From Desulforamulus ruminis DSM 2154 (lineage in GTDB: Bacteria > Bacillota > Desulfotomaculia > Desulfotomaculales > Desulfotomaculaceae), in NCBI RefSeq assembly GCF_000215085.1, contig NC_015589.1, positions 62,001 to 126,000 of the forward strand: a DNA stretch of 64,000 nucleotides, written 5' to 3'. Positions within the stretch are counted from its first letter, which is position 1. The number at the start of each line of letters is the position of its first letter. Shown one piece after another: positions 21,006 to 35,657 of the stretch. A program made the translations under genes and the position numbers. The notes under the pieces were generated by a model. That model did no database searches, was not told where the DNA came from, and saw only the letters and a list, made by a program, of their open reading frames with translations.

Positions 21006-22409
21006 ATGGATACTGGTGGTGCACCCAAAAACTTAGAAATATTTTTTGATAAAATATTAGATGTTTTTTATGATGGTATCTATATTACGGATTCCCGTGG
21101 GGTTACTATAAAAGTTAACGATATGTATGAAAAACTTACCGGTTTAAAGAAGGAAGAACTTTTGGGACGTAAGGTTACGGATTTGGAGAAGGCGGGGGTT
21201 TTTGATTCTCCTCTAAACCCCATTGTGGTTAAGACGGGAAAGCCCCAGACCTCAGTTCAGTTAAATAAAACAGGGCGAAAGGTTGTTATCAACGGGCATC
21301 CGGTATTCGATGAGGGAGGAAAGGTGGCTTACGTGGTCACCTATGTCCGGGATGTTACCGTTCTTTCTCAGTTAAAAGATGAAATATCGGTCCAGCGGGA
21401 GCTCATTCAAAAATATCATCACGAAGCGCAATACCTGCGCACGAAAAACTTTGGACAGACCCATGCGGTGATTGAAAGCCCTAAAATGATAAAATTAATG
21501 GATTTGTTAAAACGGATATCTCAGACAGACACGACGGTTTTGATTTTAGGGGAGACCGGTGTTGGGAAAGATGTCTTTGCCAAAAAAATTCACGAACACA
21601 GCAGCCGGAGGGATGAGCCGTTCTTTAAAATTAACTGTGCCACCATTCCGGAGAATCTGATTGAATCCGAACTCTTCGGCTACGACCCGGGGGCCTTTTC
21701 CGGAGCCAGTTCCAAGGGAAAACCGGGATATTTTGAATTGGCCGACAAGGGGACCCTCTTCCTGGATGAGATCGGAGAACTGCCCCTTTCCATGCAGGCA
21801 AAATTGTTGCGTGTTTTGCAGGATCAAGAAGTCATGCGGATTGGTTCGACCAAAGTAAAAAAAGTAGATGTGCGTTTTGTGGCGGCTACCAACAGGAACT
21901 TGGAGGCAGCCATCAAGGAGGGCAACTTTAGAAGCGACCTGTATTACCGGTTGCATGTGGCTGTGCTGGAAATACCCCCGCTGAGGGAAAGAATGGAGGA
22001 GATTATACCGCTCATTGATTATTTCTTAGATAAATTTAATACCAAATATAAAAAGAAAATGATTTTTTCCCAGGAAGCGAAACAAATGCTCAAATCCTAT
22101 CCCTGGCCTGGAAACGTGCGGGAAATGGAGAATTTGATTCAGGGCTTGATCGTAACAAGAGATGAAGAAATCCTGCAGTTGCAGGATTTACCCAGTTATT
22201 TGCTGACAAACCAAAATAAAAACAGCTTATTCCAACCCCATCCCCTGAATATAGAAGAGAAACCCCTCAGTGAGATCATGGATGAGTTTGAAAGAAATCT
22301 TTTGGAAAATGCCTTAAATACCCATGGCAAAACTACTACCTTGGCCAAATTGTTTCATGTAAATCATTCCACTATTTTTAGGAAATTAAAAAAATACAAT
22401 CTAATATAA
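21006..22409 (+). CDS. PAS-domain sigma-54-dependent transcriptional activator
   Basis: A 467-residue one-component activator: PAS sensor ~10-125 (DGIYITDSRGVTIKVNDMYE), AAA+ ~150-385, and a TyrR/Fis-like HTH at the end (TTLAKLFHVNHSTIFRKLKK). Walker A is GETGVGKD (182-189), the sigma-54 loop GAFSGA (229-234), Walker B GTLFLDEIGE. No receiver domain, so it should respond directly to a small molecule or partner. It lies upstream of, and in line with, two sigma-54 promoters at 22758 and 25842, each with three identical-type palindromes. It is the obvious candidate activator of the sulfonate gene cluster; the effector is unknown. Confidence 0.94.
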   Translation: MDTGGAPKNLEIFFDKILDVFYDGIYITDSRGVTIKVNDMYEKLTGLKKEELLGRKVTDLEKAGVFDSPLNPIVVKTGKPQTSVQLNKTGRKVVINGHPVFDEGGKVAYVVTYVRDVTVLSQLKDEISVQRELIQKYHHEAQYLRTKNFGQTHAVIESPKMIKLMDLLKRISQTDTTVLILGETGVGKDVFAKKIHEHSSRRDEPFFKINCATIPENLIESELFGYDPGAFSGASSKGKPGYFELADKGTLFLDEIGELPLSMQAKLLRVLQDQEVMRIGSTKVKKVDVRFVAATNRNLEAAIKEGNFRSDLYYRLHVAVLEIPPLRERMEEIIPLIDYFLDKFNTKYKKKMIFSQEAKQMLKSYPWPGNVREMENLIQGLIVTRDEEILQLQDLPSYLLTNQNKNSLFQPHPLNIEEKPLSEIMDEFERNLLENALNTHGKTTTLAKLFHVNHSTIFRKLKKYNLI

Positions 22410-22608
22410 TTTATCTTGTAGTTTAAAAGAGAGAAAGCCCGATTTCAATATTAGGCTTTTTCTTTTTTGTTTTAACCGAGCTGTATAGATCCACTTGTGG
22501 CATAAATTTAATCCTTTGAGAAATGTAGTTCATGAATGGCAAGAAACTAGTTTTTATAAAACAATGTTCGTTTCAACCAGGAAAATTTCTGAATAAGAGT
22601 AAAATTAA

Positions 22609-22706
22609 TTGCATCTGTGCAAGGGAATTTGCAATTTTGCAATGGACAATCTATCTAGGAAACGACACAATGCAATAAAAAGTAATTTTTGATTGCAAAG
22701 ATGCAA
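22609..22706 (+). promoter_or_regulatory. Three palindromic activator sites (candidate enhancer)
   Basis: TTGCATCTGTGCAA (22609-22622), TTGCAATTTTGCAA (22629-22642) and TTGCAAAGATGCAA (22693-22706) fit TTGCA-N4-TGCAA. The first two start 20 bp apart, about two helical turns; the third lies 64 bp further on and ~60 bp upstream of the -24 element. This is the layout expected for an enhancer-binding AAA+ activator. Confidence 0.75.
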
Positions 22707-22757
22707 ATTATTTAGGATAAAGAAGTGAAAAAAGTCTAATTTATCTGTATTTATGCC

Positions 22758-22774
22758 TTGGCATAGTTCTTGCT
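22758..22774 (+). promoter_or_regulatory. Sigma-54 (-24/-12) promoter for the Fe-ADH/ALDH unit
   Basis: TTGGCATAGTTCTTGCT has GG and GC with the required 10-nt spacing. Transcription is predicted to begin near 22785. Confidence 0.88.
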
Positions 22775-22796
22775 ATATTAGTACTATAGTTCACTT

Positions 22797-23975
22797 TTGG
22801 GGGAGGGGGGAGTCGGTATAACCCTGCAGATTTGTTCCTTTACAGCCCCGACCAAAATTATCAGTGGTGTTGATGCCAGGAAAACGGTTGGGACGGAGGT
22901 GAAGTCCCTGGGAGGCAAGGTTGTTTTCATCAGTACCGATAAGGGCATTGTGAATGCGGGTTTGCTGGTGGATATCCTGGAATCCCTAAGTAAAGAAAGC
23001 CTGGCCTATGTTGTATTTGATGAAGTTGAAACCAATCCCGCCATTGATATTGTGGAAAAGGGGTTACAGGTTTACCGGAACGAAGAATGTGATATTTTGC
23101 TGGCGGTGGGCGGCGGCAGCGCCATGGACACGGCCAAGGCCATCGGTATTATGGTGAACAATCCCGGACCCATTGGCACCTACGCGGGAGTTGACAAATA
23201 CCCCTGCGCTCCGCCAAATATTGTTTCGGTACCCACGGCGGCAGGTACCGGAGCGGAAATTCTCAGCACAGCGGTCATAACCGACCGGGTAAGAAATTGC
23301 AAAATTTCTGTCAGTGGTGCAGGACAATCGCCCCGGGTAGCCATTGTTGATCCTCTGATGCTGCAAACCTTGCCTGCCGCCATTGCGGCGGCTACCGGGA
23401 TGGTTACCCTGACCCATGCCATCGAGGGCTACGTATCCCTGGGCAGCTCGGAGTTAACCGATTTATTAAATTTTAAGGGAGTTCAGTTGGCCGCCAAATA
23501 TTTACGCAGATTTGTGGCTAACCGCAGAGATTTAGAAGCTGCCACCGGCATGCAAATGGCTTGCTTGTATGCTGCTTTGGGTTCGTCTAATTCGGGATTG
23601 GGCAATGTTTATGCCATGGCCAATTCCCTTGACGGACACTTTAATATCCTGCATGGCATTGCTTGTGCAGTTCTGCTGCCGGCGGTGATGGAATTTAACA
23701 CCATGGCCTGTCCGGATAAATTTATAGAAATTGCCGGATGCTTTGGGGAGAATGTTTCGGGCCTGCCGGCGCCGGAAGCCTCTTTAAAGGCTGCCGTAGC
23801 CGTGAGAAAGCTGGTCAAGGACATTGGCCTGCCCGCTGGATTAAGAGAGATGGAGATTACGGAGAAGCAAATCGTGCAGATGTCCCGGGATGCCATCGGC
23901 AGCGGTATTTATAAAACGAATCCGCGGGAAACAAACCTAATGGACATGATCAAACTATATAGGGAAAGTATTTAA
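22797..23975 (+). CDS. Fe-ADH-family protein with altered metal site
   Basis: Fe-dependent alcohol dehydrogenase/dehydroquinate synthase-like fold, up to 392 residues. The NAD motif VGGGSAMDTAKAIG (~104-117) and PTAAGTGAE are intact. Against FucO-type enzymes, ligands Asp196 and His263 correspond to Val203 (ATGMVTLTHAIEGY) and Tyr272 (GNVYAMAN), and catalytic-region His267 to Asn276; His207 and His286 remain. Metal binding is thus doubtful. Context suggests a role in C3-sulfonate or related alcohol metabolism, but chemistry is unproven. The start is uncertain: no ATG is near; TTG 22797 lacks an upstream ribosome site, while GGGGGAG (22806-22812) points to ATA 22818 or CTG 22824. Confidence 0.85.
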   Translation: MGEGGVGITLQICSFTAPTKIISGVDARKTVGTEVKSLGGKVVFISTDKGIVNAGLLVDILESLSKESLAYVVFDEVETNPAIDIVEKGLQVYRNEECDILLAVGGGSAMDTAKAIGIMVNNPGPIGTYAGVDKYPCAPPNIVSVPTAAGTGAEILSTAVITDRVRNCKISVSGAGQSPRVAIVDPLMLQTLPAAIAAATGMVTLTHAIEGYVSLGSSELTDLLNFKGVQLAAKYLRRFVANRRDLEAATGMQMACLYAALGSSNSGLGNVYAMANSLDGHFNILHGIACAVLLPAVMEFNTMACPDKFIEIAGCFGENVSGLPAPEASLKAAVAVRKLVKDIGLPAGLREMEITEKQIVQMSRDAIGSGIYKTNPRETNLMDMIKLYRESI

Positions 23976-24036
23976 TCTGGGTGCATAGGCCTGGGGCTTT
24001 GGCCCCGGGTAATTTATACAAAGGAGGCCATATAAA

Positions 24037-25458
24037 ATGGTTGCTGAGGTTCGATTATTTATTAATGGTGAATGGGTAAGCACCAATCAAAAGGAAAAAG
24101 TATTGAATAAAGCCACAGGAGAGACGGTGGCGGAGTATTATGTCGCCGGTGCCAAGGAAGTGGATGCGGCCATTGCTGCCGCTGAGAATGCTTTTAAAAC
24201 CAAAAAGTTAGCTCCTTACCGCCGTTATGAAATTTTAAAAAGAGCCAGCGAATTAATGATGGAAAGACAGGAGGACTTAGCTCTAACCATCAGCCAGGAA
24301 GTAGGCAAAACGCTAAAAGAAGCAAAGGGCGAAGTAGCCCGGGCAGCCCAAACTCTGTTGATTTCCGCGGAGGAAAGTAAGCGTGTACAGGGAGAAATTG
24401 TTCCCATTGCCGGTTCTCCCGGAAATGAAAACCGCCGCGCCTGGACCACGCGGGTACCCCTGGGCATTGTTTGTGCCATTACTCCATTTAATGTACCGGC
24501 CAACTTAACCTGCCATAAAGTGGGTCCGGCCATTGCTGCCGGGAACGCTGTTGTGTACAAGCCTGCCAGCGCCACTCCCATTATCGGTGCAAAACTCTGT
24601 GAGATCATGGCGGAAGCAGGTTTGCCGGCCGGGTACTTAAACATGGTGATGGGGTCCGGCCCGGTGGTGGGCGATGCCCTGGCCAAGGACCAACGAATCG
24701 CATTTTACAGCTTTACCGGTAGTGCGGCGGTAGGAATGAAACTAAAAACTGCCGTGGGTTTTAGACCCATTTCTTTGGAGCTTGGTTCTAATTCCCCTAC
24801 CCTGGTTCACGGCGATGCTGATTTGGCGGCGGCCGTTGACGCATGCACGCGGTCTGCCTTTGCCAATGCCGGCCAGTTGTGCATTTCCGTACAACGGGTT
24901 TATGTTCATGCTCCCATTTACGATGAATTCTGCAAGCAGGCAGCGGCTCTGGCCCAAACCTTAAAAATTGGAGATCCTCTGGATCCTGCCACCGATATTG
25001 GCCCCATGATCAGTGAAAAAGAGGCGGTAAGGGCTGAAGCCTGGATTCAAGAGGCGGTGGCTGAAGGGGCCAAACTCTTGGCAGGGGGGCAGCGCAAAGG
25101 ACCCTTTTTAGAGCCGACAGTTTTAGCCAACGTTAAGCCGCAAATGAAATGCAGTTGTAACGAAGTTTTTGCTCCGGTCTTTAATATTGTGTCTTACGAT
25201 ACCATCGACGAAGCCATCGCCCTGGCTAATGATTCATGTTACGGTTTGCAGGCGGCTATTTTTACAAATTCCCTGGATATCGCCACCCGTTGCGCTGAGG
25301 AGCTGGAAGCCGGCGGTGTCATCATTAATGATGTTTCTACTTTCCGCGCCGATCTCATGCCCTATGGAGGTTGGAAGGAAAGTGGTATCGGCAAGGAAGG
25401 CCCCCGGTATGTAATCGAAGAAATGACCAAGGAAAAAATTGTGGTCTTAAAGATGTAA
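24037..25458 (+). CDS. NAD(P)-dependent aldehyde dehydrogenase (possible sulfolactaldehyde dehydrogenase)
   Basis: A full-length ALDH of 473 residues. Catalytic Cys282 lies in GQLCIS, general base Glu249 in LELGSNSP and oxyanion Asn153 in TPFNVP; FTGSAAVG is the cofactor turn. It oxidises an aldehyde to the acid without CoA (class of lactaldehyde/succinate-semialdehyde dehydrogenases). In this cluster the natural candidate is 3-sulfolactaldehyde to sulfolactate, by analogy with SlaB/GabD-type enzymes of sulfonate degraders; substrate is inference. AAAGGAGG precedes ATG, 61 bp after the Fe-ADH-family gene, and a strong terminator follows. Confidence 0.9.
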   Translation: MVAEVRLFINGEWVSTNQKEKVLNKATGETVAEYYVAGAKEVDAAIAAAENAFKTKKLAPYRRYEILKRASELMMERQEDLALTISQEVGKTLKEAKGEVARAAQTLLISAEESKRVQGEIVPIAGSPGNENRRAWTTRVPLGIVCAITPFNVPANLTCHKVGPAIAAGNAVVYKPASATPIIGAKLCEIMAEAGLPAGYLNMVMGSGPVVGDALAKDQRIAFYSFTGSAAVGMKLKTAVGFRPISLELGSNSPTLVHGDADLAAAVDACTRSAFANAGQLCISVQRVYVHAPIYDEFCKQAAALAQTLKIGDPLDPATDIGPMISEKEAVRAEAWIQEAVAEGAKLLAGGQRKGPFLEPTVLANVKPQMKCSCNEVFAPVFNIVSYDTIDEAIALANDSCYGLQAAIFTNSLDIATRCAEELEAGGVIINDVSTFRADLMPYGGWKESGIGKEGPRYVIEEMTKEKIVVLKM

Positions 25459-25533
25459 CGACTAAGATTTCTTTTAGTAGCTTTTATGTCCCTAAATTCT
25501 CCATAAATCCCTCTATGATCAGGACCTGTGATC

Positions 25534-25566
25534 AAACCTGTGGTTTATACCACAGGTTTCTCTTTC
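25534..25566 (+). terminator. Rho-independent terminator
   Basis: A perfect 11-bp stem AAACCTGTGGT/ACCACAGGTTT with loop TTAT, followed by CTCTTTCT. It ends the first sigma-54 unit. Confidence 0.82.
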
Positions 25567-25692
25567 TATAGGACCACCATCCTGAACTCAAGAATTTGGG
25601 AAATGTAGTTCATGAAATGAAAGAAAATTAAATTTTTTCTTGAAAAACAACCTTCTTTTAAGCTGAGACATTTCTGAATAAAGCAAAATTTA

Positions 25693-25790
25693 TTGCATCT
25701 GCGCAAATAAATTGCAATTCTGCAAGAGGGGGATTGTCCGAGAAACGACATAAAACGAGAAAAAAGTAACCTATAATTGCAAAATTGCAA
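25693..25790 (+). promoter_or_regulatory. Three palindromic activator sites (candidate enhancer)
   Basis: TTGCATCTGCGCAA (25693-25706), TTGCAATTCTGCAA (25712-25725) and TTGCAAAATTGCAA (25777-25790). The starts are 19 and 65 bp apart, nearly the same as the 20 and 64 bp in copy 1. Confidence 0.75.
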
Positions 25791-25841
25791 TATTTTTAGA
25801 ATCAAGAAGTCGAAAAAATGCAATTTGTCTGGATTTATACT

Positions 25842-25858
25842 TTGGCACAGTTCTTGCT
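25842..25858 (+). promoter_or_regulatory. Sigma-54 (-24/-12) promoter for the SuyAB unit
   Basis: TTGGCACAGTTCTTGCT matches the sigma-54 consensus TGGCAC-N5-TTGC exactly. The predicted start is near 25869, giving a long leader of about 160 nt before the first ATG. Confidence 0.9.
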
Positions 25859-26030
25859 ATATAAGTACTATAGTTCACTTATCGGAGGGGAAGGAAGCAG
25901 GGCGGACGGTCTGGCCCATAGCATAAGAGGATGTTTCACCGGTAAGTTCAGAATTAACAGATTAATTAAATTTTGAGATAATTTAATTGGTTGCTGAAAG
26001 GGCTAATAAATAAAAGCAGGTGAATAATCA

Positions 26031-26975
26031 ATGAAATTTGTCATAACCGAATTGATCTGGAACGAAGGAATCGAGATATTAAAGGAAATGGGTGAAGTCA
26101 TTTACGATCCCAATCTGTGGAAGAAGAATGAGCAGTTGCCTTCACTCTTAACGGATGCCGACGCCCTGATTGTAAGAAACCAGACCAGAGTGACCGGAGA
26201 ACTGCTGGCCCAAGCCCCCAAGCTCAAAGTGGTAGGCCGCTTGGGCGTGGGTCTGGATAACATTGAACTGGCCGCTGCCCGGGAAGCCGGCGTTAAAGTG
26301 GTCTTTGCCCGGAATGCCAATGCCATCTCGGTGGTTGAATATGTTTTTGCCGCCATGTTTTCCTTTTCCCGCCCCCTGGAAAAGGCGTCTCAGGATGTTA
26401 AGCAAGGGAACTGGGACCGTAAGCTCTTTACCCGGGAAGAAATTTACGGCAAAACCCTGGGTCTCATCGGTGTGGGGGAAATTGGCGCCCGGCTGGCTTC
26501 CCGGGCCAAGGCCTTTGGAATGAAGGTCATTGGTTATGATCCCTTCCTGCCGCCCTACGAACTGGCCTGCACCGACATTGGTGTCAATATGACTTCTTTA
26601 GAAAAAGTCTTGGCCGAAGCGGATTATGTCAGCCTGCATGTGCCGCTAAATGATCAAACCAGGAACTTGATCAACAGGGAAAGTCTCAAGACCATGAAAA
26701 AGACCACTTTCATTATAAACACAGCCCGGGGTGGTGTCATTAACGAAAGCGATCTTTATGAAGCCCTTAAATCCAATATTATTGCCGGAGCCGCCCTGGA
26801 TGTGCTGTCCAAGGAACCGCCTGAGGGCAACCAACTGCTGGAGCTGGATAACCTGATGGTGACGCCTCATATTGCCGGACTGACCGAGGAAGCCCAGGTG
26901 CGAACGTCCGAACTGGTGGCCCGGGAATGTGTCAAGGTATTGTGTGGACAGGGTTCTCTGTGCATCGTAAGATAA
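26031..26975 (+). CDS. D-2-hydroxyacid dehydrogenase (SlcC/(S)-sulfolactate dehydrogenase-like)
   Basis: A 314-residue NAD-dependent enzyme of the phosphoglycerate-dehydrogenase family without the SerA ACT domain. Rossmann motif LGLIGVGEIGARLA, catalytic Arg in INTARGGVINESDL, Glu in LSKEPPEGN and His in TPHIAGLTEE are present. In known sulfolactate degraders such a protein (SlcC) oxidises (S)-sulfolactate to sulfopyruvate and sits beside comC and suyAB, exactly the arrangement here. Function assignment rests on context. It is the first gene after the second sigma-54 promoter; the next gene begins 25 bp on. Confidence 0.82.
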   Translation: MKFVITELIWNEGIEILKEMGEVIYDPNLWKKNEQLPSLLTDADALIVRNQTRVTGELLAQAPKLKVVGRLGVGLDNIELAAAREAGVKVVFARNANAISVVEYVFAAMFSFSRPLEKASQDVKQGNWDRKLFTREEIYGKTLGLIGVGEIGARLASRAKAFGMKVIGYDPFLPPYELACTDIGVNMTSLEKVLAEADYVSLHVPLNDQTRNLINRESLKTMKKTTFIINTARGGVINESDLYEALKSNIIAGAALDVLSKEPPEGNQLLELDNLMVTPHIAGLTEEAQVRTSELVARECVKVLCGQGSLCIVR

Positions 26976-27000: not shown

Positions 27001-28062
27001 ATGAATTTTACTGCGTTACAGTTGACCGAATTTTGCTCCAATTTGCTGCAAGCAGTGGGCGTGCCCCAGGCAGAAGCCGATATTGCGGCGGATGTTCTGG
27101 TGGATACCAGTTTGGAAGGGCTGGATACCCACGGCATCAGCCGGCTGCCCATCTATGTAAGCCGGATTCAAAAGGGGCGCATTAATGCCAAGGCGGCAAT
27201 TAAAGTTAATCAAACCGCACCGGCGGCAGCTACGGTGGATGGCGACAACGGCTTGGGGCAAGTGGTGGGCGTAAGGGCCATGGAGGTGGCCATTCGTCTG
27301 GCCCAAGAGGCCGGTGTGGGTGCCGTGGCGGTTAAACACAGCAACCATTACGGGGCTTCCTCCTATTTTTGTAAACAGGCAGCCGCTGCGGGCATGGTGG
27401 GTTTGGCTTTTACCAACACTCCTTCCGGGATCCCGCCTTGGGGCGGCAAGGAAGCCTATTTCGGGACCAACCCCATAGCCTTTGGCTTCCCCGGCAAAGA
27501 ACAGCCGGTGGTGGTGGATATGTCCTCCAGCATCGTGGCCAGGGGCCACATTATTCTGGCAGCCAAACAAGGCCAGCCCATCCCCGAAGGATGGGCCATT
27601 GACAAGGAAGGAAAACCCACCACCGATGCCAAAGCCGCCCTGGAGGGAGCGGTGCTTCCCATGGCCGGACCCAAGGGCTATGCATTAGCCCTGGCGGTTG
27701 AAGTGATGGCGGGAATTATCAGTGGATCCGCCTTTGGTAAAAATGTGGGGTGGATTTACGACGAAAGCACCCAGCCGGTGGATATCGGACATTTCTTTGT
27801 TGCCCTGGATGTGGCTAAATTTATGCCGCTGGGATTTTTCCTTAACCGGATGCTGCAAATGATTACGGAAATTAAGGAAACACCCAAAGCAGAAGGGGTT
27901 GAGGAAATTTTTATTCCCGGCGAAAGGAGAGCTATGAAAGCCAAGCGGCGTAAACGGGAGGGCATTCCTGTTCCGGATCCGTTGCTGGCAGAGCTGAACC
28001 AATTGGCCGGGGAAGTTGGTGTCATGCCCCTGGGTTCGTTTACAACAAGTGGTAATACCTAA
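27001..28062 (+). CDS. Malate/L-lactate dehydrogenase-2 family (ComC/(R)-sulfolactate dehydrogenase-like)
   Basis: A 353-residue member of the LDH2/MDHG family, a NAD(P)-dependent 2-oxoacid reductase fold unrelated to classical lactate dehydrogenase. Family blocks: DTSLEGLDTHGISRLPIYV, VDGDNGLGQVVG, VKHSNHYGASSYF, NTPSGIPPWGGKEAYFGTNP and PKGYALALAVEVMAG. ComC from this family reduces sulfopyruvate to (R)-sulfolactate, the isomer cleaved by SuyAB; paired with the SlcC-like enzyme it would interconvert the two isomers through sulfopyruvate. Plain malate or ureidoglycolate dehydrogenase is the alternative. ACGGAGGAA precedes ATG. Confidence 0.82.
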   Translation: MNFTALQLTEFCSNLLQAVGVPQAEADIAADVLVDTSLEGLDTHGISRLPIYVSRIQKGRINAKAAIKVNQTAPAAATVDGDNGLGQVVGVRAMEVAIRLAQEAGVGAVAVKHSNHYGASSYFCKQAAAAGMVGLAFTNTPSGIPPWGGKEAYFGTNPIAFGFPGKEQPVVVDMSSSIVARGHIILAAKQGQPIPEGWAIDKEGKPTTDAKAALEGAVLPMAGPKGYALALAVEVMAGIISGSAFGKNVGWIYDESTQPVDIGHFFVALDVAKFMPLGFFLNRMLQMITEIKETPKAEGVEEIFIPGERRAMKAKRRKREGIPVPDPLLAELNQLAGEVGVMPLGSFTTSGNT

Positions 28063-28194: not shown

Positions 28195-28473
28195 TTGATT
28201 AAGTTCCTAGTACACGACCTGGCAGACATGGTTGGTGTAGCCGTAGCCGACATTAAAGCCGGCGAAGCAGTCACCGGGAAAGTTCAGGACTCGGACAAGA
28301 CCATTGAGATTCAGTCTATCAGTGATATTCCCCTGGGCCACAAAATCGCCCTGAAAGATATCGCTGCCGGTGAAAGGGTAATCAAGTATCACGTGCCCAT
28401 CGGTAAAACCGTACAGGCCATTAAAAAGGGTGAGCATGTGCACACCCATAATTTAAAAACGGAAAGGTGGTAA
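28195..28473 (+). CDS. suyA: SAF-domain small subunit of sulfolactate sulfo-lyase (UxaA N-terminal type)
   Basis: A 92-residue SAF domain corresponding to the N-terminal part of altronate dehydratase and to SuyA. Key strings are [41 protein letters not shown], and [19 protein letters not shown], where the final His-containing strand contributes to the active site. With SuyB it forms the lyase that splits (R)-sulfolactate to pyruvate and sulfite. TTG start 28195 has AAGGAGGAG upstream; the stop overlaps the suyB reading frame by 7 nt at its first candidate start. Split-subunit organisation matches SuyAB more than fused UxaA. Confidence 0.78.
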
Positions 28474-28481
28474 ACCCAATC

Positions 28482-29642
28482 ATGTCTATCCCCACTTTTT
28501 ATGGCTATCGCCGTGAGAACGGCGCCGTAGGCTGCCGCAATCATGTGATCATTTTACCTGTGGACGATATTTCTAACGCTGCTTGTGAAGCGGTGGCCAA
28601 GCATGTCCAGGGCACCATGGCCCTGCCCCATCCCTACGGCCGTCTGCAGTTTGGTGAAGATTTAGAGCTGCATTTCCGTACTTTGATCGGCACCGGCTGC
28701 AACCCCAACGTAGCGGCGGTCGTGGTCATCGGCATTGAACCCAACTGGACCAATCTGATTGTGGAAGGCATTGCTAAGACCGGCAAGCCGGTGGCGGGCT
28801 TCTCAATTGAGCGCAACGGGGATTTTAAAACCGTGGAGCAGGCTTCCTGGAAAGCCAAGGAATTCGTTCAGTATGCCACCGGACTGCAAAGGGTGGAGTG
28901 CAGCATTGATGAACTGACCATTTCCACGAAATGCGGTGAGTCGGATACCACTTCCGGCCTGGCAGCCAACCCCTCCATTGGCCGTCTGTACGACCGTCTG
29001 GACCCCATGGGCCTGACCTTGTTCTTCGGGGAAACTTCGGAAGTGACCGGCGGGGAGCATCTGGTAGCGGATCGTTGCGCGACGCCGGAAATCAGGGAAG
29101 AGTTCATGAAGACCTGGACGGCTTACAACCAGTTCATTTTGGACCAGGGTGTGGATCTGTGCGGTACTCAGCCCACCCAGGGGAACATTGCCGGGGGCTT
29201 AACCACCATTGAAGAAAAAGCCTTGGGCAACATTCAGAAGATCGGTAAAGTAGCGAAAGTACAGGGTGTGCTGGCTCCGGCGGAAGCACCGACCAAGAAA
29301 GGCCTGCACTTTATGGATACCTCCTCGGCAGCAGCTGAATGCTTAACCCTGATGGCAGCCGCGGGAGCGGTATGCCACTTCTTCCCCACCGGCCAAGGCA
29401 ACATTGTGGGGAACCCCATTTTGCCGGTGATTAAGGTTTCGGCGAACCCCATCACGGTATCCACCATGTCGGAGCACATTGACGTAGATCTGAGCGGCAT
29501 TCTGCGGGGTGAAATGGATCTGGACGGAGCGGCGGATGCGCTGATGGACATCATGATCCGCACTTTGAACGGCCGGATGACCAATGCGGAAACCCTGGGT
29601 CATAAGGAGTTTGTTTTGACCAAGCTCTATCGTTCCGCTTAA
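28482..29642 (+). CDS. suyB: Large subunit of sulfolactate sulfo-lyase (UxaA C-terminal type)
   Basis: About 386 residues of the UxaA/SuyB family, an Fe-dependent lyase. Recognisable are [75 protein letters not shown] and [19 protein letters not shown], with Cys and His residues typical of the iron site. SuyB is ~390 residues, in agreement. The start is taken as ATG 28482 ([14 protein letters not shown]), with GAAAGGTGG upstream; GTG 28467 overlaps that site. Sulfite released here would feed dissimilatory sulfite reduction. Altronate or galactarate dehydratase is the alternative, disfavoured by the neighbours. Confidence 0.8.
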
Positions 29643-29782
29643 TCCATAAAGTCACAGATAAAAAGAGGGACTGGATAAATTCCCGCCCCTTAGAAAAGAA
29701 ATATGAGAGTAAAATACAAAAATCATTTTAGTACAAAATGAATAGAAAAGCTACAAAAAGTTGCAAGAAAGAAGGTGTGGCT

Positions 29783-31216
29783 ATGTCCCAAGAGATTATT
29801 GTGCGCGGGAAACAAGATATTATTAACTTTCTAAATAATGCGGGTCCGGCCAAGAATGCCTCTATTGTGATTTTTACCGCCTTGGGCGGCATCTTTATCG
29901 ATGCCTATGACTTTACCAGCCTGGGTATTGGGGCGGTGCAGTTAAAAGAGCAATTTGGTTTAAGTGCTGTGCAAATGGGGAATTTAACGGCCTCCATGGC
30001 TTTTGGCGCCCTGCTGGGGGCAATTTTTGGCGGTTACTTTGTTGATAAACTGGGAAGGCAGAAAATGTTTTATGCCGACCTCTGGTTCTTTGTGGTTTCC
30101 GCCCTGGTTGCGGCCTTTGCTCCCAATGTGGAAGTATTAATGTTATGTCGGTTTTTGATGGGTATCGGCGTTGGTCTGGATTTCCCGGTGGCTTTAAGTT
30201 ATATTGCCGAGTTTAGCTCCATGAAGGGCAAGGGCAAGTGGGTCAACCTCTGGCAAGGCATGTGGTATGTTGCGGCATCTGCCTCTTTCTTAATTGTGCT
30301 TCCCTTTTACTTCCTGGGAGCCGGTCCCCATCTGTGGAGATGGGCGGTTGGTTTCGGAGCGGTGCCGGCCATCGTGGTTCTAATCATGCGGAAGTATTTC
30401 ATGGAAGAAAGCCCCCTTTGGGCTCTGAACCATGTGGGTATAAAGGAAGCGGCACGGATTATTGAAAGAACCTATGAAGTAAAAGTGGTATTGGATTGCA
30501 AACCCGAAGACCTGGAACCGGTCAAGGAAGAACATAAACCCAATCTATCCTACGGGGCTTTATTCACCAAGCGCTACAGGCTGAGAACCCTGATGGCCAC
30601 CATTGTGGCCATGACCCAGAGTATGGAATACTTTGCAGTGGGTTTCTACCTGCCGGTGATTGCCGCCATGATTTTCGGTAAGGAATTCCTCTGGGCCATT
30701 GTTGGCTCCATCGTATTTAATTGTTTCGGCATTGTAGGCGGGACCTGGCAGGCTTATATTACAGATAAGTTCGGTTCCAGAAAAATGTGCATCATTGGCT
30801 ATAGCATTGCCTGCTCTTGCCTGCTGATCATCGGGTTATTTGAACAACATATGTCGGTGCTTATGCAAGCCTTGGTCATCGGCCTGTTTATCTTCGGGCA
30901 CTCTTTCGGACCGGGCGCCCAGGGAATGGCAGTGGCGACCCTATCCTTTCCGGCCAGCATCCGGGGCTTGGGTTCCGGTTGGGGACAGACCATGGTACGG
31001 GTAGGCAGTATTACCGGCTTCTATTTCTTCCCCCTGGTACTGGCGGCTGTTGGTTTGCAAAAAACCCTGTTGTTCCTGGCCCTGGTACCGGCTATCGGTT
31101 TACTGTCCATCCTGGCCATTAAATGGGATCATACCGGTCAAGATGTTGAGTCGGAAGCTTTGCAAGATGAACAAGCGGCCAAAACCCAAGGCATGAGTGC
31201 AGGAGTTAATCTTTAG
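29783..31216 (+). CDS. MFS transporter, candidate sulfonate importer
   Basis: A 477-residue major facilitator transporter with 12 predicted membrane segments, of the sugar/aromatic-acid/niacin-like MFS group. The loop-2/3 motif GGYFVDKLGRQKMFYADLW and FLMGIGVGLDFPVALSYIAEF mark the N-terminal half, and a cytosolic loop lies between helices 6 and 7 (~220-265). ATG 29783 is 5 nt after GAAGGTG; the upstream in-frame ATG 29738 has no site. Its place between suyB and the hydroxyacid reductase suggests import of DHPS or sulfolactate, which is inference. Confidence 0.88.
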   Translation: MSQEIIVRGKQDIINFLNNAGPAKNASIVIFTALGGIFIDAYDFTSLGIGAVQLKEQFGLSAVQMGNLTASMAFGALLGAIFGGYFVDKLGRQKMFYADLWFFVVSALVAAFAPNVEVLMLCRFLMGIGVGLDFPVALSYIAEFSSMKGKGKWVNLWQGMWYVAASASFLIVLPFYFLGAGPHLWRWAVGFGAVPAIVVLIMRKYFMEESPLWALNHVGIKEAARIIERTYEVKVVLDCKPEDLEPVKEEHKPNLSYGALFTKRYRLRTLMATIVAMTQSMEYFAVGFYLPVIAAMIFGKEFLWAIVGSIVFNCFGIVGGTWQAYITDKFGSRKMCIIGYSIACSCLLIIGLFEQHMSVLMQALVIGLFIFGHSFGPGAQGMAVATLSFPASIRGLGSGWGQTMVRVGSITGFYFFPLVLAAVGLQKTLLFLALVPAIGLLSILAIKWDHTGQDVESEALQDEQAAKTQGMSAGVNL

Positions 31217-31286
31217 TGCGCGGAAAGTAGATTACGTAATGACTGAATCTGTTTCTCTTAATTCTCGACAAAAAGGGGTGTCCTCA

Positions 31287-32144
31287 ATGAAATACGGATA
31301 TATTGGATTAGGTCTTATGGGGGGAGGGTTAGCCCGCAACCTCATTCGTGCAGGAAAAGATGTAACGGTATTTGATTTAAACCCGGAAGCCATTAAAAAA
31401 ACCCTGGCTGTGGGGACTACCGGGAAAGCAGCCCAAGGTGCTGCGGAACTGGCCGGTTGCGATGTGGTATTTACCAGTCTGCCCCTGCCTAAACACATTG
31501 AGGGGACCATGCTGGGAGAAGAAGGGCTGCTGAGCAAAATGAAGGCTGGGGCCACCTATATTGATGTAAGTACCATCGACCCCAAAACCGCTAGAAAATT
31601 AGCGGAGGCTGCAGAGAGTAAAGGGATTGGTTTCCTGGCCTGCCCTTTGGGAAAAGGTCCGGCCCAGGCCGAGAAGGCGGAACAGCCCATCTTCGCCGGT
31701 GGTAAAAAGGAAGTATATGAAAAAATGCTGGATACTTTAAAGATCGTGGGCAATCCCGTTTATTATCTTGGCGGGGCGGAACAGGCCTACGCCTTTAAAT
31801 TAATCAGCAATATGATCGGCATGACCAATCTGGCTGTGCTGGCTGAAGGTTTGCGCATCGGTGAAAAGGCCGGTATTGAGCCTAAGCAGCTTCAGGAACT
31901 GCTGGCCGATACCGGGGCGAACTCCTTCCAGTTACAGGTTCGCGGGCCTTGGATCTTAAACAACGACTTTGGCAACCGTTTCGGTGTCAGTCTGGCTTTG
32001 AAGGATGTCCGGCTGGGTTGTGACATGGCCGATGACTGGGGTTATGATGCCAGATTCACCAAGCTGGCCAAGAAATTCTACGAAATTGCGGAAGCCCAAG
32101 GTTTTGCCAACGAAGACTGCAACGCAGTTTATAAAGTTTTGTAG
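31287..32144 (+). CDS. Beta-hydroxyacid dehydrogenase, 3-sulfolactaldehyde reductase-like
   Basis: A 285-residue beta-hydroxyacid dehydrogenase. Rossmann start YIGLGLMGGGLARNLI, substrate loop DVSTIDP, catalytic Lys171 in FKLISN. The loop that in hydroxyisobutyrate enzymes reads SGG is PLGKG, with basic Lys123 after Gly122; in YihU, the E. coli sulfolactaldehyde reductase, the equivalent is, from memory, a Gly-Arg pair contacting the sulfonate. This supports a sulfolactaldehyde/DHPS interconversion. ATG 31287 follows AAAAGGGGTG; longer upstream frames overlap the transporter end and lack a site. Last gene of the unit, followed by a terminator. Confidence 0.85.
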   Translation: MKYGYIGLGLMGGGLARNLIRAGKDVTVFDLNPEAIKKTLAVGTTGKAAQGAAELAGCDVVFTSLPLPKHIEGTMLGEEGLLSKMKAGATYIDVSTIDPKTARKLAEAAESKGIGFLACPLGKGPAQAEKAEQPIFAGGKKEVYEKMLDTLKIVGNPVYYLGGAEQAYAFKLISNMIGMTNLAVLAEGLRIGEKAGIEPKQLQELLADTGANSFQLQVRGPWILNNDFGNRFGVSLALKDVRLGCDMADDWGYDARFTKLAKKFYEIAEAQGFANEDCNAVYKVL

Positions 32145-33182: not shown

Positions 33183-35657
33183 TTAAACCAGCAGCAGCAT
33201 GACCAAGGCAAAATACCCCAGAGCCAGAAAAAAGGCCGCGGCATTAAGCCATTTGTTTTTGACTTTAGGGGAGATCTTGGTCAGGCAATACTCTGTAAAC
33301 AACAATCCGATGACCATAAAGTGGGCTTGCAGAAAGTAACAGGCGGTGGTTGTCAGCAGGGGGCTGCTTGTTTTAAGGCTGGATAATTGGACCAGGTAGT
33401 TTTTTAAAGGGCTGAATTTGGTGCCCAACTGGTAGGAAATATGACTTCCGGTAATGAGTGGGATGAAAGCCAAGGACATGCGCAGGTAGGAAACAAAATT
33501 TTTGGCCATCACTCTCTTCTTTAAAAAGAAAACAACAAAAGCGGCCAAGAGTAAAAACAGCGTCCAATAAGAGAGATTAAATACCCATTTCCAATGCTGG
33601 GGATAGGTATTTTTTATTTCCGGCAGCAGGCATAGGGGCAGCAGCATCAAGCCGAAAAATAAAACCAGAGCAGCCATTCCCCCGTGCACATTGGAGAGAC
33701 GCCAGATTTCCCTGCCCGGGGGCCGCAGGCTAAATTTAATGGAATCGTTGGGGCAGTTCAGAACACATTTAAAGCACAGCTTGCAATTCATATTACTGTC
33801 CAGGTAAGCGGCATGCTGCAGCATGGGACAGCCGGTTCCCGTATCCCCTTTATAACAATTGAAGGTTTGACATTGGTTCTGGCAGATGTCTGTTTTAGCC
33901 CGCAGTTCAACCGGTGATAAGGTGGAACAAACGGCGAAGATGGCTCCCAGGGGACACAGGTAGCGGCACCAGATTTGACCCCGGAAGAGCAGCCCGCAGG
34001 CGATGGCTGCGGCTGAAATGGCCAGCAGCAAGAGGCCTGTTAAATAAGGAACATCCTTTATATCAAAAAATTCTTCATACCAGAAAATCAGGCTAAAAAG
34101 GAAGGAAAAAAATAAGTAGTAATTTTTACTGATAAAGGCTGGCACCGGTTTGGCGTAACACTTTATTTCCTGAGCCTTGCAAGCTAAAAAAGCAAAGGGA
34201 CAGATGGAGCAGGAAATCCTGGCCAGCAGCAGGGAGGCCAAAATAATCATGGGGCCCATGAATTTCCAGGTGAAGGTATTGATCCAGAGGTTGGTATTGT
34301 TTCCGGTAAAGGCAAAGAAAAGAATGCCGATAAAGATCAGGGTCATTCCTTGTTGAGCCCTTTGCGGCCAGATTTTATGATGAATTAAATTTTTCAGAAA
34401 GCCCCACTGGAGAAGATTATACCCGGGATGACTCTTGATTACTTCACCAAGAATAATGGTTTCCGCTTCGATAACAGAAGTGCTTGTTAACAGCACGGCC
34501 CGGTCAATGATTTCTTCCAACTCGCGGATGTTGGCCTGCTGGTAATCGTGGTACAGCAGTTTTTCAGTGGCGGCCTGGGAAAGGGAAAGACCTTCCTTTT
34601 CATATTTTTTACCCTTTAACGTCACAAAGTGATTTAGTAATTCAGGAATATCTCTTTTCCGGTTTCGCAGGGGTTCCAGATAGAGGAGGTCGCGGAACAG
34701 TGAATTGCACACAACGCCCGGAAATTTTTTTTCAATATACCGGGTGGGGTTACTGACGGTGGAGGCCATGAGAATTCTTACTTCCCTGGATCGGTTCACA
34801 TAGTCTATCAACCGCAGCAAAGCGCCTTTGGGGAGCAGCTCGATGTCGTTCAGGAACAGGGTGCCCCCCTGGGCTAAGTCCATATAACTGAAGCCATCGG
34901 TCAATCTTTCCATTTTGGCCAGCGGACCCAGTAATTTATTTCCTTCCTCATCCTTTGTAAGCTCTTCGCACTCCACTACAATAAAGGGCTTTTCGTTCCT
35001 CATTCCGTAGGTGTGAATGAGATTGGCCGCCAGAATTTTACCTGTTCCCTTTTCTCCCAGGATTAAGACGGGCTCATTGTGCCTGGCGATTTCATCAATT
35101 TTATGCCGCAATATTTTGGTAAACTTGCTCTGACCCACCAGTTCATGCCAATCGTTTCTGGAATGAATAATGAAACTGGCCAGGGACAGCTCCTTGTTCC
35201 TGGCAGCGAAAATTTCATCGTTTACCTTGATTAGCTGAGAAGAGAGGGTTTTAATCACTTTGTGGTTTAATTCAGGAACCCATTGGATGAGATTTTCAAA
35301 ACCACGGTCTTTAAAGACAATAATCTGACTTTTTTTGGCGGTACTAATGCAAACCGGAGAGGCTTCCCTGGTAAGAAGGCAAATTTCCCCATAATAGTCT
35401 CCGGGAGAAAGTCGGTCCAAAATGATTTTTTCTCCATGCTCATCCTGAGTGTAGACCTCTAATTCCCCTGAAAAAACAATAAAAAACTTGTCGAGGATTT
35501 CCCCCTGGGATATCATAAGATCCTGAGGGCGCAGGGTCTTTAAGCTGCAATGGCTGCTGATGTCCAGTAAAAGGTGGTCGGAAATGCCCTTAAACAGGCT
35601 CAGATTTTTTAATAAAGGATAGAGGATGTTTGAATTGGTTTGTTTTAACATAACCAT
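33183..35657 (-). CDS. Fusion: cyclic-nucleotide-binding / degenerate sigma-54 AAA / polyferredoxin membrane protein
   Basis: An 824-residue fusion. Residues ~15-130 are a CRP-type cNMP-binding domain (GEICLL). Residues ~170-410 align to sigma-54 AAA+ domains (VGQSKF, LILGEKGTGKI, AQGGTLFLNDIELLP, LRNRKRDIPELLNHF), but Walker A ends in Ile, Walker B is ND rather than DE and the GAFTGA loop is absent, so ATPase and sigma-54 contact are doubtful. From ~435 on are multiple membrane segments with NapH/NosR-type cysteines (ISCSICP, CRYLCPLGA) and a ferredoxin CKLCFKCVLNCP. No HTH is visible. It probably senses a ligand and controls or performs membrane electron transfer. ATG follows GGAGG. Confidence 0.88.
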   Translation of the reverse strand: MVMLKQTNSNILYPLLKNLSLFKGISDHLLLDISSHCSLKTLRPQDLMISQGEILDKFFIVFSGELEVYTQDEHGEKIILDRLSPGDYYGEICLLTREASPVCISTAKKSQIIVFKDRGFENLIQWVPELNHKVIKTLSSQLIKVNDEIFAARNKELSLASFIIHSRNDWHELVGQSKFTKILRHKIDEIARHNEPVLILGEKGTGKILAANLIHTYGMRNEKPFIVVECEELTKDEEGNKLLGPLAKMERLTDGFSYMDLAQGGTLFLNDIELLPKGALLRLIDYVNRSREVRILMASTVSNPTRYIEKKFPGVVCNSLFRDLLYLEPLRNRKRDIPELLNHFVTLKGKKYEKEGLSLSQAATEKLLYHDYQQANIRELEEIIDRAVLLTSTSVIEAETIILGEVIKSHPGYNLLQWGFLKNLIHHKIWPQRAQQGMTLIFIGILFFAFTGNNTNLWINTFTWKFMGPMIILASLLLARISCSICPFAFLACKAQEIKCYAKPVPAFISKNYYLFFSFLFSLIFWYEEFFDIKDVPYLTGLLLLAISAAAIACGLLFRGQIWCRYLCPLGAIFAVCSTLSPVELRAKTDICQNQCQTFNCYKGDTGTGCPMLQHAAYLDSNMNCKLCFKCVLNCPNDSIKFSLRPPGREIWRLSNVHGGMAALVLFFGLMLLPLCLLPEIKNTYPQHWKWVFNLSYWTLFLLLAAFVVFFLKKRVMAKNFVSYLRMSLAFIPLITGSHISYQLGTKFSPLKNYLVQLSSLKTSSPLLTTTACYFLQAHFMVIGLLFTEYCLTKISPKVKNKWLNAAAFFLALGYFALVMLLLV

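Follow-up and report, generated by a model that had tools for sequence, protein, structure and literature searches.

We analysed a stretch of 64,000 nucleotides (the window, C1:62001-126000) from the closed genome of Desulforamulus ruminis DSM 2154 (3,969,014 bases). Here, two control regions of about 280 bp follow the gene of a predicted activator. Each region carries three palindromes of the form TTGCA-N4-TGCAA upstream of a -24/-12 promoter. We read these two modules as paired sigma-54 enhancer-promoters through which the one activator controls two sulfonate operons, and estimate the probability of this reading at roughly 85%. Most likely, the activator turns on sulfonate-breakdown genes through both control regions, releasing sulfite for respiration. 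A candidate set of regulator, operator and two operons is thereby available for the respiration of sulfonates by a sulfate reducer of the rumen, a step by which plant sulfonates can become H2S.

An earlier note on this DNA, made from its letters alone, had described the two regions as paralogous, with a shared order of short blocks. The likeness is real: the modules lie about 3.1 kb apart and are identical at 230 of 315 alignment columns (score 284, compared with 52 ± 8.4 for 500 shuffles). Searching the genome with the module returned two copies only (76%, E 5.9e-48), the next match having an E of 0.08. The spacing of the three palindromes was as described, 20 and 64 bp from start to start in module 1 and 19 and 65 bp in module 2. 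Not all six are exact, however; five are, and the one at 25693 (TTGCATCTGCGCAA) deviates by one mismatch. Over the whole window, seven palindromes with at most one mismatch are unremarkable against 3.48 expected (4 of 100 shuffles reach seven). Within the modules, three and three palindromes stand against shuffle means of 0.054 and 0.0325, and none of 2,000 shuffles reached three. The palindromes are thus clustered in both modules far beyond chance. The genome-wide search that the note had proposed gave seven exact palindromes, five of them in the two modules, and the reversed control pattern gave one.

The remaining blocks were also found in both modules, namely a distal block, a GAAACGACA block, the -24/-12 promoter (TTGGCAyAGTTCTTGCT at 22758 and 25842) and a start-site block. 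As claimed, the sequence between them has diverged, with 124 of 188 positions identical outside the blocks and far higher identity inside: 29/30 in the palindrome half-sites, 16/17 in the -24/-12 element, 16/16 each in the distal and start-site blocks and 9/9 in the GAAACGACA block, the last being weakly above the rest (p 0.03). The idea that all of these blocks are under selection was borne out in part. The palindromes and their spacing recur in orthologues, but the distal and start-site blocks do not, their best match across 10 orthologue promoter regions having at least four mismatches. Equal selection on all blocks is therefore ruled out. Being unmatched at orthologue promoters, these two blocks are common to the two modules only, and their identity may stem from duplication or from a local function. 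Both contain TAGTTCA, flank the duplicated unit on its two sides and are confined, within the window, to the two modules.

The predicted activator and its candidate sites in related genomes

The predicted activator combines an AAA+ domain (PF00158, E 4.8e-70) with a PAS domain (PF13426, PAS_9) and a helix-turn-helix (HTH) domain (PF18024, HTH_50). The AAA+ domain with its GAFSGA motif, the PAS domain and the C-terminal HTH place it among the PAS-type group 2 sigma-54 enhancer-binding proteins (EBPs). GAFSGA is listed as a variant of the GAFTGA loop (PMC6615313). A sigma-54 gene is present in the D. ruminis genome. The best NCBIfam model for the protein is that of PrdR (NF041552), to which it does not belong by score (423.5 bits, cut-off 795).

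Eight of the 113 order genomes encode an orthologue of the activator at E ≤ 1e-135 (a search of the class covered the same 113). The phylum yielded 6 of 398, one of which (G150, 47%) was counted as a paralogue, and the class of G484 yielded 6 of 82 at E ≤ 1e-140. A further scan of contigs added only Desulforamulus aquiferis, which is the G007 contig, and two distant EBPs. Counting that of D. ruminis, this gave 15 orthologues that are 55-100% identical over the best stretch; 14 are full-length, and the frame of G007 is split. For comparison, 23 paralogue loci were collected, 22 from the activator similarity search plus G150. The recognition helix T-x-F-R-K occurs in all 14 full-length orthologues and in none of the 23 paralogues. 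GAFSGA is found in 13 of the 14, G516 carrying GAFTGA, and among the paralogue loci 21 have GAFTGA and two have no GAFxGA. By these counts, GAFSGA is a marker of the activator family.

That the palindrome is a candidate operator of the adjacent activator, as had been proposed, agrees with its conservation beside the activator in orthologues. With at most one mismatch, it was found within 600 bp of the activator at all ten orthologues of the first set and at five of five later ones, and near paralogues at 2 of 23 loci. The 5.6-kb contig of G150 carries no palindrome at this threshold. The comparison with related genomes that the note had called for also showed the three-site spacing to recur at orthologue promoters. 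To score this '2+1' layout, we required a pair of palindromes 19-21 bp apart, both with at most two mismatches, and a proximal site 55-85 bp from the promoter. The first set comprised 17 strict -24/-12 matches that are intergenic and next to the activator or a neighbouring operon; matches inside genes or overlapping an opposite-strand gene start were left out (L038 4922, 9086, 14141 and 17313; L039 12702; L040 8221; L044 16019; L061 6798). The full layout was present at 13 of these 17 promoters, compared with a mean of 0.003 and a maximum of 1 across 300 shuffled sets. Judging by the listed positions, it is also complete at minus-strand promoters of G261 and G484 that have a relaxed -24 element. 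Among the five orthologues added later, the full layout is present at 4 of 7 strict promoters (shuffle mean 0.002), one of the seven lying inside a gene (L124 7972); of the four promoters there with a relaxed element, one shows it in full and another has a pair spaced 18 bp apart. At paralogue loci, none of 10 strict promoters has it. Since the layout is shared by relatives, the predicted binding site of the activator is probably right. A -24/-12 element, a sigma-54 gene and upstream inverted repeats that track the activator together mark the modules as predicted sigma-54 promoters with enhancers, or upstream activating sequences (UAS).

From 33 unique sites at 11 complete promoters, the consensus tgTTGCA-N4-TGCAAca was obtained, with an invariant inner TG that the mismatch-based choice of sites favours. 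In the pooled sites, the flanking bases tend towards TGT...ACA (T 52%, G 61%, T 83%), and the palindromes of the D. ruminis window are without the outer G. The TGT-N-ACA form is known for many EBP sites (PMC6615313; PMC4641369).

Predicted target operons and glycyl-radical relatives

Downstream of module 1 are genes for an iron-dependent alcohol dehydrogenase (Fe-ADH) and an aldehyde dehydrogenase (ALDH). Module 2 is followed by genes for a D-2-hydroxyacid dehydrogenase, an Ldh_2 dehydrogenase, SuyA-like and SuyB-like proteins, an MFS transporter and a 3-hydroxyisobutyrate-dehydrogenase-like protein. The D-2-hydroxyacid dehydrogenase (26031..26975) is a candidate of the SlcC kind, and the Ldh_2 protein (27001..28062) a candidate of the ComC kind. 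The best NCBIfam model of the latter is NF040650, L-sulfolactate dehydrogenase (318.8 bits, cut-off 500), and the Fe-ADH scores below the cut-offs of SarD and lactaldehyde reductase. In the family model scan, the SuyB-like protein matched no Suy-specific model, and its only solved relative is galactarate dehydratase. The naming of 28467..29642 as SuyB rests on a publication in which D. ruminis DSM 2154 appears among the carriers of suyB (PMC6278857) and on a search of its own genome (E ≤ 1e-30), which returned four near-identical copies and nothing else. In Desulfovibrio sp. DF1, DhpA, SlaB and SuyAB convert dihydroxypropanesulfonate (DHPS) to pyruvate and sulfite, DhpA being of the hydroxyisobutyrate-dehydrogenase type (PMC6278857). 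DhpA-, SlaB- and SuyAB-like genes occur together in the window as well, assigned at family level. D. ruminis differs from DF1 in its additional Fe-ADH and in SlcC/ComC-like dehydrogenases within the SuyAB operon. Behind the palindromes of G043 lie MFS, DhpA-, SlcC-, SuyAB- and ALDH-like genes; the MFS gene comes first and its product is 84.5% identical to that of the window, the DhpA-like one 86.0%. The G525 locus has an aldehyde:ferredoxin oxidoreductase, a DhpA-like protein (77.9%) and the TRAP parts DctP and DctM, and DF1 co-encodes an aldehyde:ferredoxin oxidoreductase with DhpA (PMC6278857). By family and neighbourhood, the window operons look like genes of DHPS/sulfolactate respiration.

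Most of the related activators appear to have another kind of target. A glycyl-radical enzyme is encoded close to the activator in 11 of the 14 orthologues other than that of D. ruminis (G002, G005, G007, G008, G027, G053, G261, G484, G507, G518 and G526). The enzyme of G007 is interrupted, and in G516 the contig stops ahead of the target genes. Activases were recognized by family or alignment in G008, G002, G261, G053, G507, G518 and G526, and elsewhere as similar frames only. Other neighbours at these loci are amidohydrolases, TRAP or MFS transporters, DsrE and TauE. Five of the glycyl-radical enzymes were scanned and scored 1,553-1,602 bits to NF048011, which is named for DHPS lyase (cut-off 1,000). 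The nearest solved structures of the G008 enzyme are the isethionate lyases of D. vulgaris and Bilophila. As we read the alignment, the isethionate lyase residues Arg189, Gln193, Trp374 and Phe682 (PMC8473560) are kept in 11 of 12 aligned enzymes, ten of them linked to the activator and one being the copy of the D. ruminis genome; the twelfth, from G043, is not activator-linked and has Val at position 682. This suggests that the activator-linked lyases act on isethionate. Both enzyme types are able to cleave isethionate (PMC13219744).

In the activator tree, those near DHPS/sulfolactate genes (D. ruminis, G043 and G525, plus G516) form one group (90/89), and support for a common origin of the glycyl-radical group is weak (46/46). 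The D. ruminis activator is nearest to that of G043, which belongs to another family, and not to the glycyl-radical-type relatives of its own genus. According to this grouping, one predicted operator is common to the isethionate-lyase-type and DHPS/sulfolactate-type activators.

It is conceivable, though unlikely, that the pathway is not one for DHPS or sulfolactate, that the enzymes act on another C2-C3 compound and that the inducer may be isethionate or the shared product sulfite. Of seven PAS domains compared, all from activators near glycyl-radical lyases, six are 59-72% identical to that of D. ruminis and the seventh 46%. The lyases concerned have the residues of isethionate lyase, with Phe at position 682 (Ile in 6lon), and Fe-ADH and ALDH score below every curated equivalog cut-off. 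However, SuyAB-, ComC-, SlcC-, DhpA- and SlaB-like genes co-occur in the window, and DhpA-like genes stand behind the same sites in G043 and G525, whose activators fall into the 90/89 group.

Proposed mechanism and its rivals

The proposed scheme starts from the observed sites, their spacing and conservation, the gene content and the sigma-54 gene. Each palindrome would bind one activator dimer through the C-terminal HTH, so that the distal pair would carry two dimers, two helical turns apart, and the proximal site, some 60 bp upstream of -24, a third. Once the PAS domain receives its signal, for which a C3 sulfonate (DHPS or sulfolactate, for example) is the probable candidate, one AAA+ hexamer would arise from the three dimers, the DNA would loop and the sigma-54 polymerase at the -24/-12 element would be opened. 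Module 1 would drive the Fe-ADH/ALDH operon and module 2 the operon of SlcC-, ComC-, SuyAB-, MFS- and DhpA-like genes. With the activator shared by both modules, the oxidation and desulfonation parts of the pathway would be induced together and sulfite would be supplied for respiration. Three palindromes per promoter, two of them two turns apart, fit the assembly of one hexamer from three dimers. More tentatively, and at somewhat less than even odds, the 2+1 layout might be a geometric code by which one hexamer forms from three DNA-bound dimers, kept through the split of the activator family. This idea covers both activator types (isethionate-lyase and DHPS/sulfolactate), each in two bacterial classes. 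If true, the activator family would be a natural system for solving DNA-bound EBP assembly. As a layout kept in distant relatives and at unrelated operons, the three sites give simple access to AAA+ hexamer assembly by enhancer DNA; how UAS binding influences activity was described as unknown as of 2020 (PMC7175178).

Several points weigh against the reading of the modules as paired enhancer-promoters of sulfonate operons. Four of the 17 strict promoters of the first set are without the full layout: Fe-ADH of G053 (one site, 49 bp), TauE of G027 (no site), Fe-ADH of G007 (pair only) and the glycyl-radical enzyme of G484 (proximal site, no pair). The same applies to 3 of the 7 later ones, two without a site and one with a pair spacing of 27 bp. 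Among the 10 strict promoters at paralogue loci, three carry either a pair or a proximal site, and none carries both. The counts are not independent, because G002/G005 and G507/G518/G526 are closely related. The window genes score under NCBIfam equivalog cut-offs. Three extra suyAB copies of the genome have no nearby sites, so that sulfolactate cleavage would not be under this activator alone. That the activator binds, with one dimer on each site, and that a hexamer forms and the DNA loops are inferred, as are the substrate and the inducer. Finally, a pattern combining site and promoter speaks for the reading in part, as it matched only the two modules in the D. ruminis genome, and its 17 matches over the order (12 of 113 genomes) and 23 over the phylum (21 of 398) compare with 1 and 2 for the reversed control. 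Against the reading, only 7 and 4 of these matches, respectively, are at orthologue loci. Others are likely promoters of other EBPs (G114, G006, G191, G034, G069, G059), and the remainder is probably due to chance.

Palindromes upstream of -24/-12 elements were seen in G114 (three exact; L098 8941-9170), G006 (L099 9460-9540) and G191 (L100 9773-9873). A close orthologue of the activator was not found in these three genomes, where other EBPs perhaps read the same palindrome.

An improbable alternative is that the likeness of the modules is mostly due to recent duplication, with sites that were inherited and only one active promoter. The modules are the sole two copies in the genome and 73-76% alike throughout, and the distal and start-site blocks, perfect between them, were not found at orthologue promoters. 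On the other hand, half-sites and promoter are better kept (29/30 and 16/17) than the rest (124/188), and the full layout recurs at promoters of unrelated operons, for which reason it is likely functional and not merely inherited. It is still less probable that a MarR- or GntR-type repressor acting at the same promoters uses the palindromes as its operators: TTGC-N6-GCAA symmetry also suits dimeric repressors, a GntR/FCD gene adjoins the activator in G043 and a GntR/UTRA gene precedes the glycyl-radical operon of D. ruminis, but that operon has no palindrome with at most one mismatch, the 13 proteins scanned around the modules, which are not every frame, include no GntR or MarR regulator, and the palindromes lie at enhancer distance without overlapping the promoter and follow the activator across 15 loci with differing neighbours.

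The paired enhancer-promoters of D. ruminis resemble several published systems. NorR has three enhancer sites at norVW that are essential for activation and serve as a scaffold for a ring-shaped oligomer; its GAF domain, however, senses NO, and the likeness is one of site number and role (PMC2941729). Clostridial EBP groups with TGT-N10-12-ACA sites share multiple UAS per promoter and the TGT...ACA-leaning flanks. The portion of that source seen names no sulfonate regulon, and one of the groups, XptB (target sulT), could be related (PMC6615313). Another is the DVU2827 regulon of Desulfovibrio vulgaris. DVU2827 is a one-component EBP with the same GAFSGA variant; its predicted sites are at the sigma-54 promoters in front of an amidohydrolase gene and an operon of TRAP and 'pyruvate formate-lyase' (DVU2824) genes, as is the case at many of the orthologues here; in 2015, the regulon was assigned to pyruvate metabolism and transport (PMC4641369). 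DVU2827-like neighbours (amidohydrolase, glycyl-radical enzyme, activase, TRAP/MFS) are present at several orthologues. The window copy, compared with the published description only, shares GAFSGA and differs in its neighbours, as its targets are of the DHPS/sulfolactate type with no glycyl-radical lyase. We take DVU2824 to be IslA of D. vulgaris. The structure of this IslA is PDB 5YMR (PMC8473560). Among the matches listed, consisting of open-access titles and abstract beginnings, no sigma-54 regulator of sulfolactate, DHPS or isethionate genes appeared other than in PMC4641369, which in the part available did not treat DVU2827 as a regulator of sulfonate genes. The published 'pyruvate formate-lyase' EBP may deserve to be re-read as a sulfonate-lyase regulator.

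Features of the locus and further gene copies

Table 1. Positions of the predicted activator, the two modules and their operons in the window
Feature	Position	Strand	Basis
Predicted activator: PAS, AAA+ sigma-54 interaction domain (GAFSGA), C-terminal HTH with NHSTIFRKLKKY	21006..22409	+	Pfam, orthologues
Distal block AAATGTAGTTCATGAA, module 1	22521..22536	+	sequence comparison
Palindrome 1, module 1, distal pair	22609..22622	.	palindrome scan
Palindrome 2, module 1, distal pair, 20 bp from palindrome 1	22629..22642	.	
GAAACGACA block, module 1	22659..22667	+	
Palindrome 3, module 1, proximal; centre 59 bp upstream of T of TGGC	22693..22706	.	
-24/-12 promoter TTGGCATAGTTCTTGCT of Fe-ADH/ALDH operon	22758..22774	+	
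Start-site block GTACTATAGTTCACTT, module 1; predicted start near 22785	22781..22796	+	
Fe-ADH, start codon uncertain	22797..23975	+	PF00465
ALDH, SlaB-like candidate	24037..25458	+	PF00171; 89.6% identical protein in G043 sulfolactate cluster
Distal block AAATGTAGTTCATGAA, module 2	25601..25616	+	
Palindrome 1, module 2, one mismatch	25693..25706	.	
Palindrome 2, module 2	25712..25725	.	
GAAACGACA block, module 2	25742..25750	+	
Palindrome 3, module 2, proximal, 59 bp	25777..25790	.	
-24/-12 promoter TTGGCACAGTTCTTGCT of sulfolactate operon	25842..25858	+	
Start-site block GTACTATAGTTCACTT, module 2	25865..25880	+	
D-2-hydroxyacid dehydrogenase, SlcC-like candidate	26031..26975	+	PF02826
Ldh_2 family dehydrogenase, sulfolactate-dehydrogenase (ComC)-like candidate	27001..28062	+	PF02615
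SAF-domain protein, SuyA-like	28195..28473	+	PF08666
SuyB-like sulfolactate sulfite-lyase large subunit	28467..29642	+	PF20629/PF04295
MFS transporter, candidate sulfonate importer	29738..31216	+	PF00083/PF07690
3-hydroxyisobutyrate-dehydrogenase-like, DhpA-like candidate	31197..32144	+	PF03446/PF14833

Three further loci or sets of loci in the genome were considered as targets of the activator and rejected. Around each of the exact palindromes at C1:1341759 and 2030996, 20 kb contain no strict -24/-12 element. The isethionate-type lyase of D. ruminis (C1:481582, 92% to that of G008) is located behind a GntR/UTRA gene and an MFS gene, and in 19.9 kb neither a palindrome with at most one mismatch nor a strict -24/-12 element was found. 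The stretches examined around the other three suyAB copies also contain no strict -24/-12 element, and their palindrome near-matches are only inside genes, none adjoining suyAB.

The four suyAB copies lie at 28195-29642 of the window and at G000:C1:622594, 1721696 and 1728108, with SuyB 99-100% identical. Over about 1,470 bp, their DNA is 95.9-99.6% identical, compared with 83% for the flanking dehydrogenases in one cluster. This contrast points to gene conversion or recent copying. In G043, suyAB is present twice, with 99.9% identity over 1,537 bp and in inverted orientation around the activator.

At the Fe-ADH gene, no ATG, GTG or TTG start directly behind a G-rich ribosome-binding site was found in 22797-22833. 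Candidates are ATA at 22818, CTG at 22824, ATT at 22830 or, immediately ahead of that ribosome-binding site, the TTG at 22797; the start codon is possibly non-standard. Further downstream, on the minus strand at 33183-35657, Pfam matches describe an unusual fusion of cyclic-nucleotide-binding, sigma-54-activator-like and membrane iron-sulfur parts.

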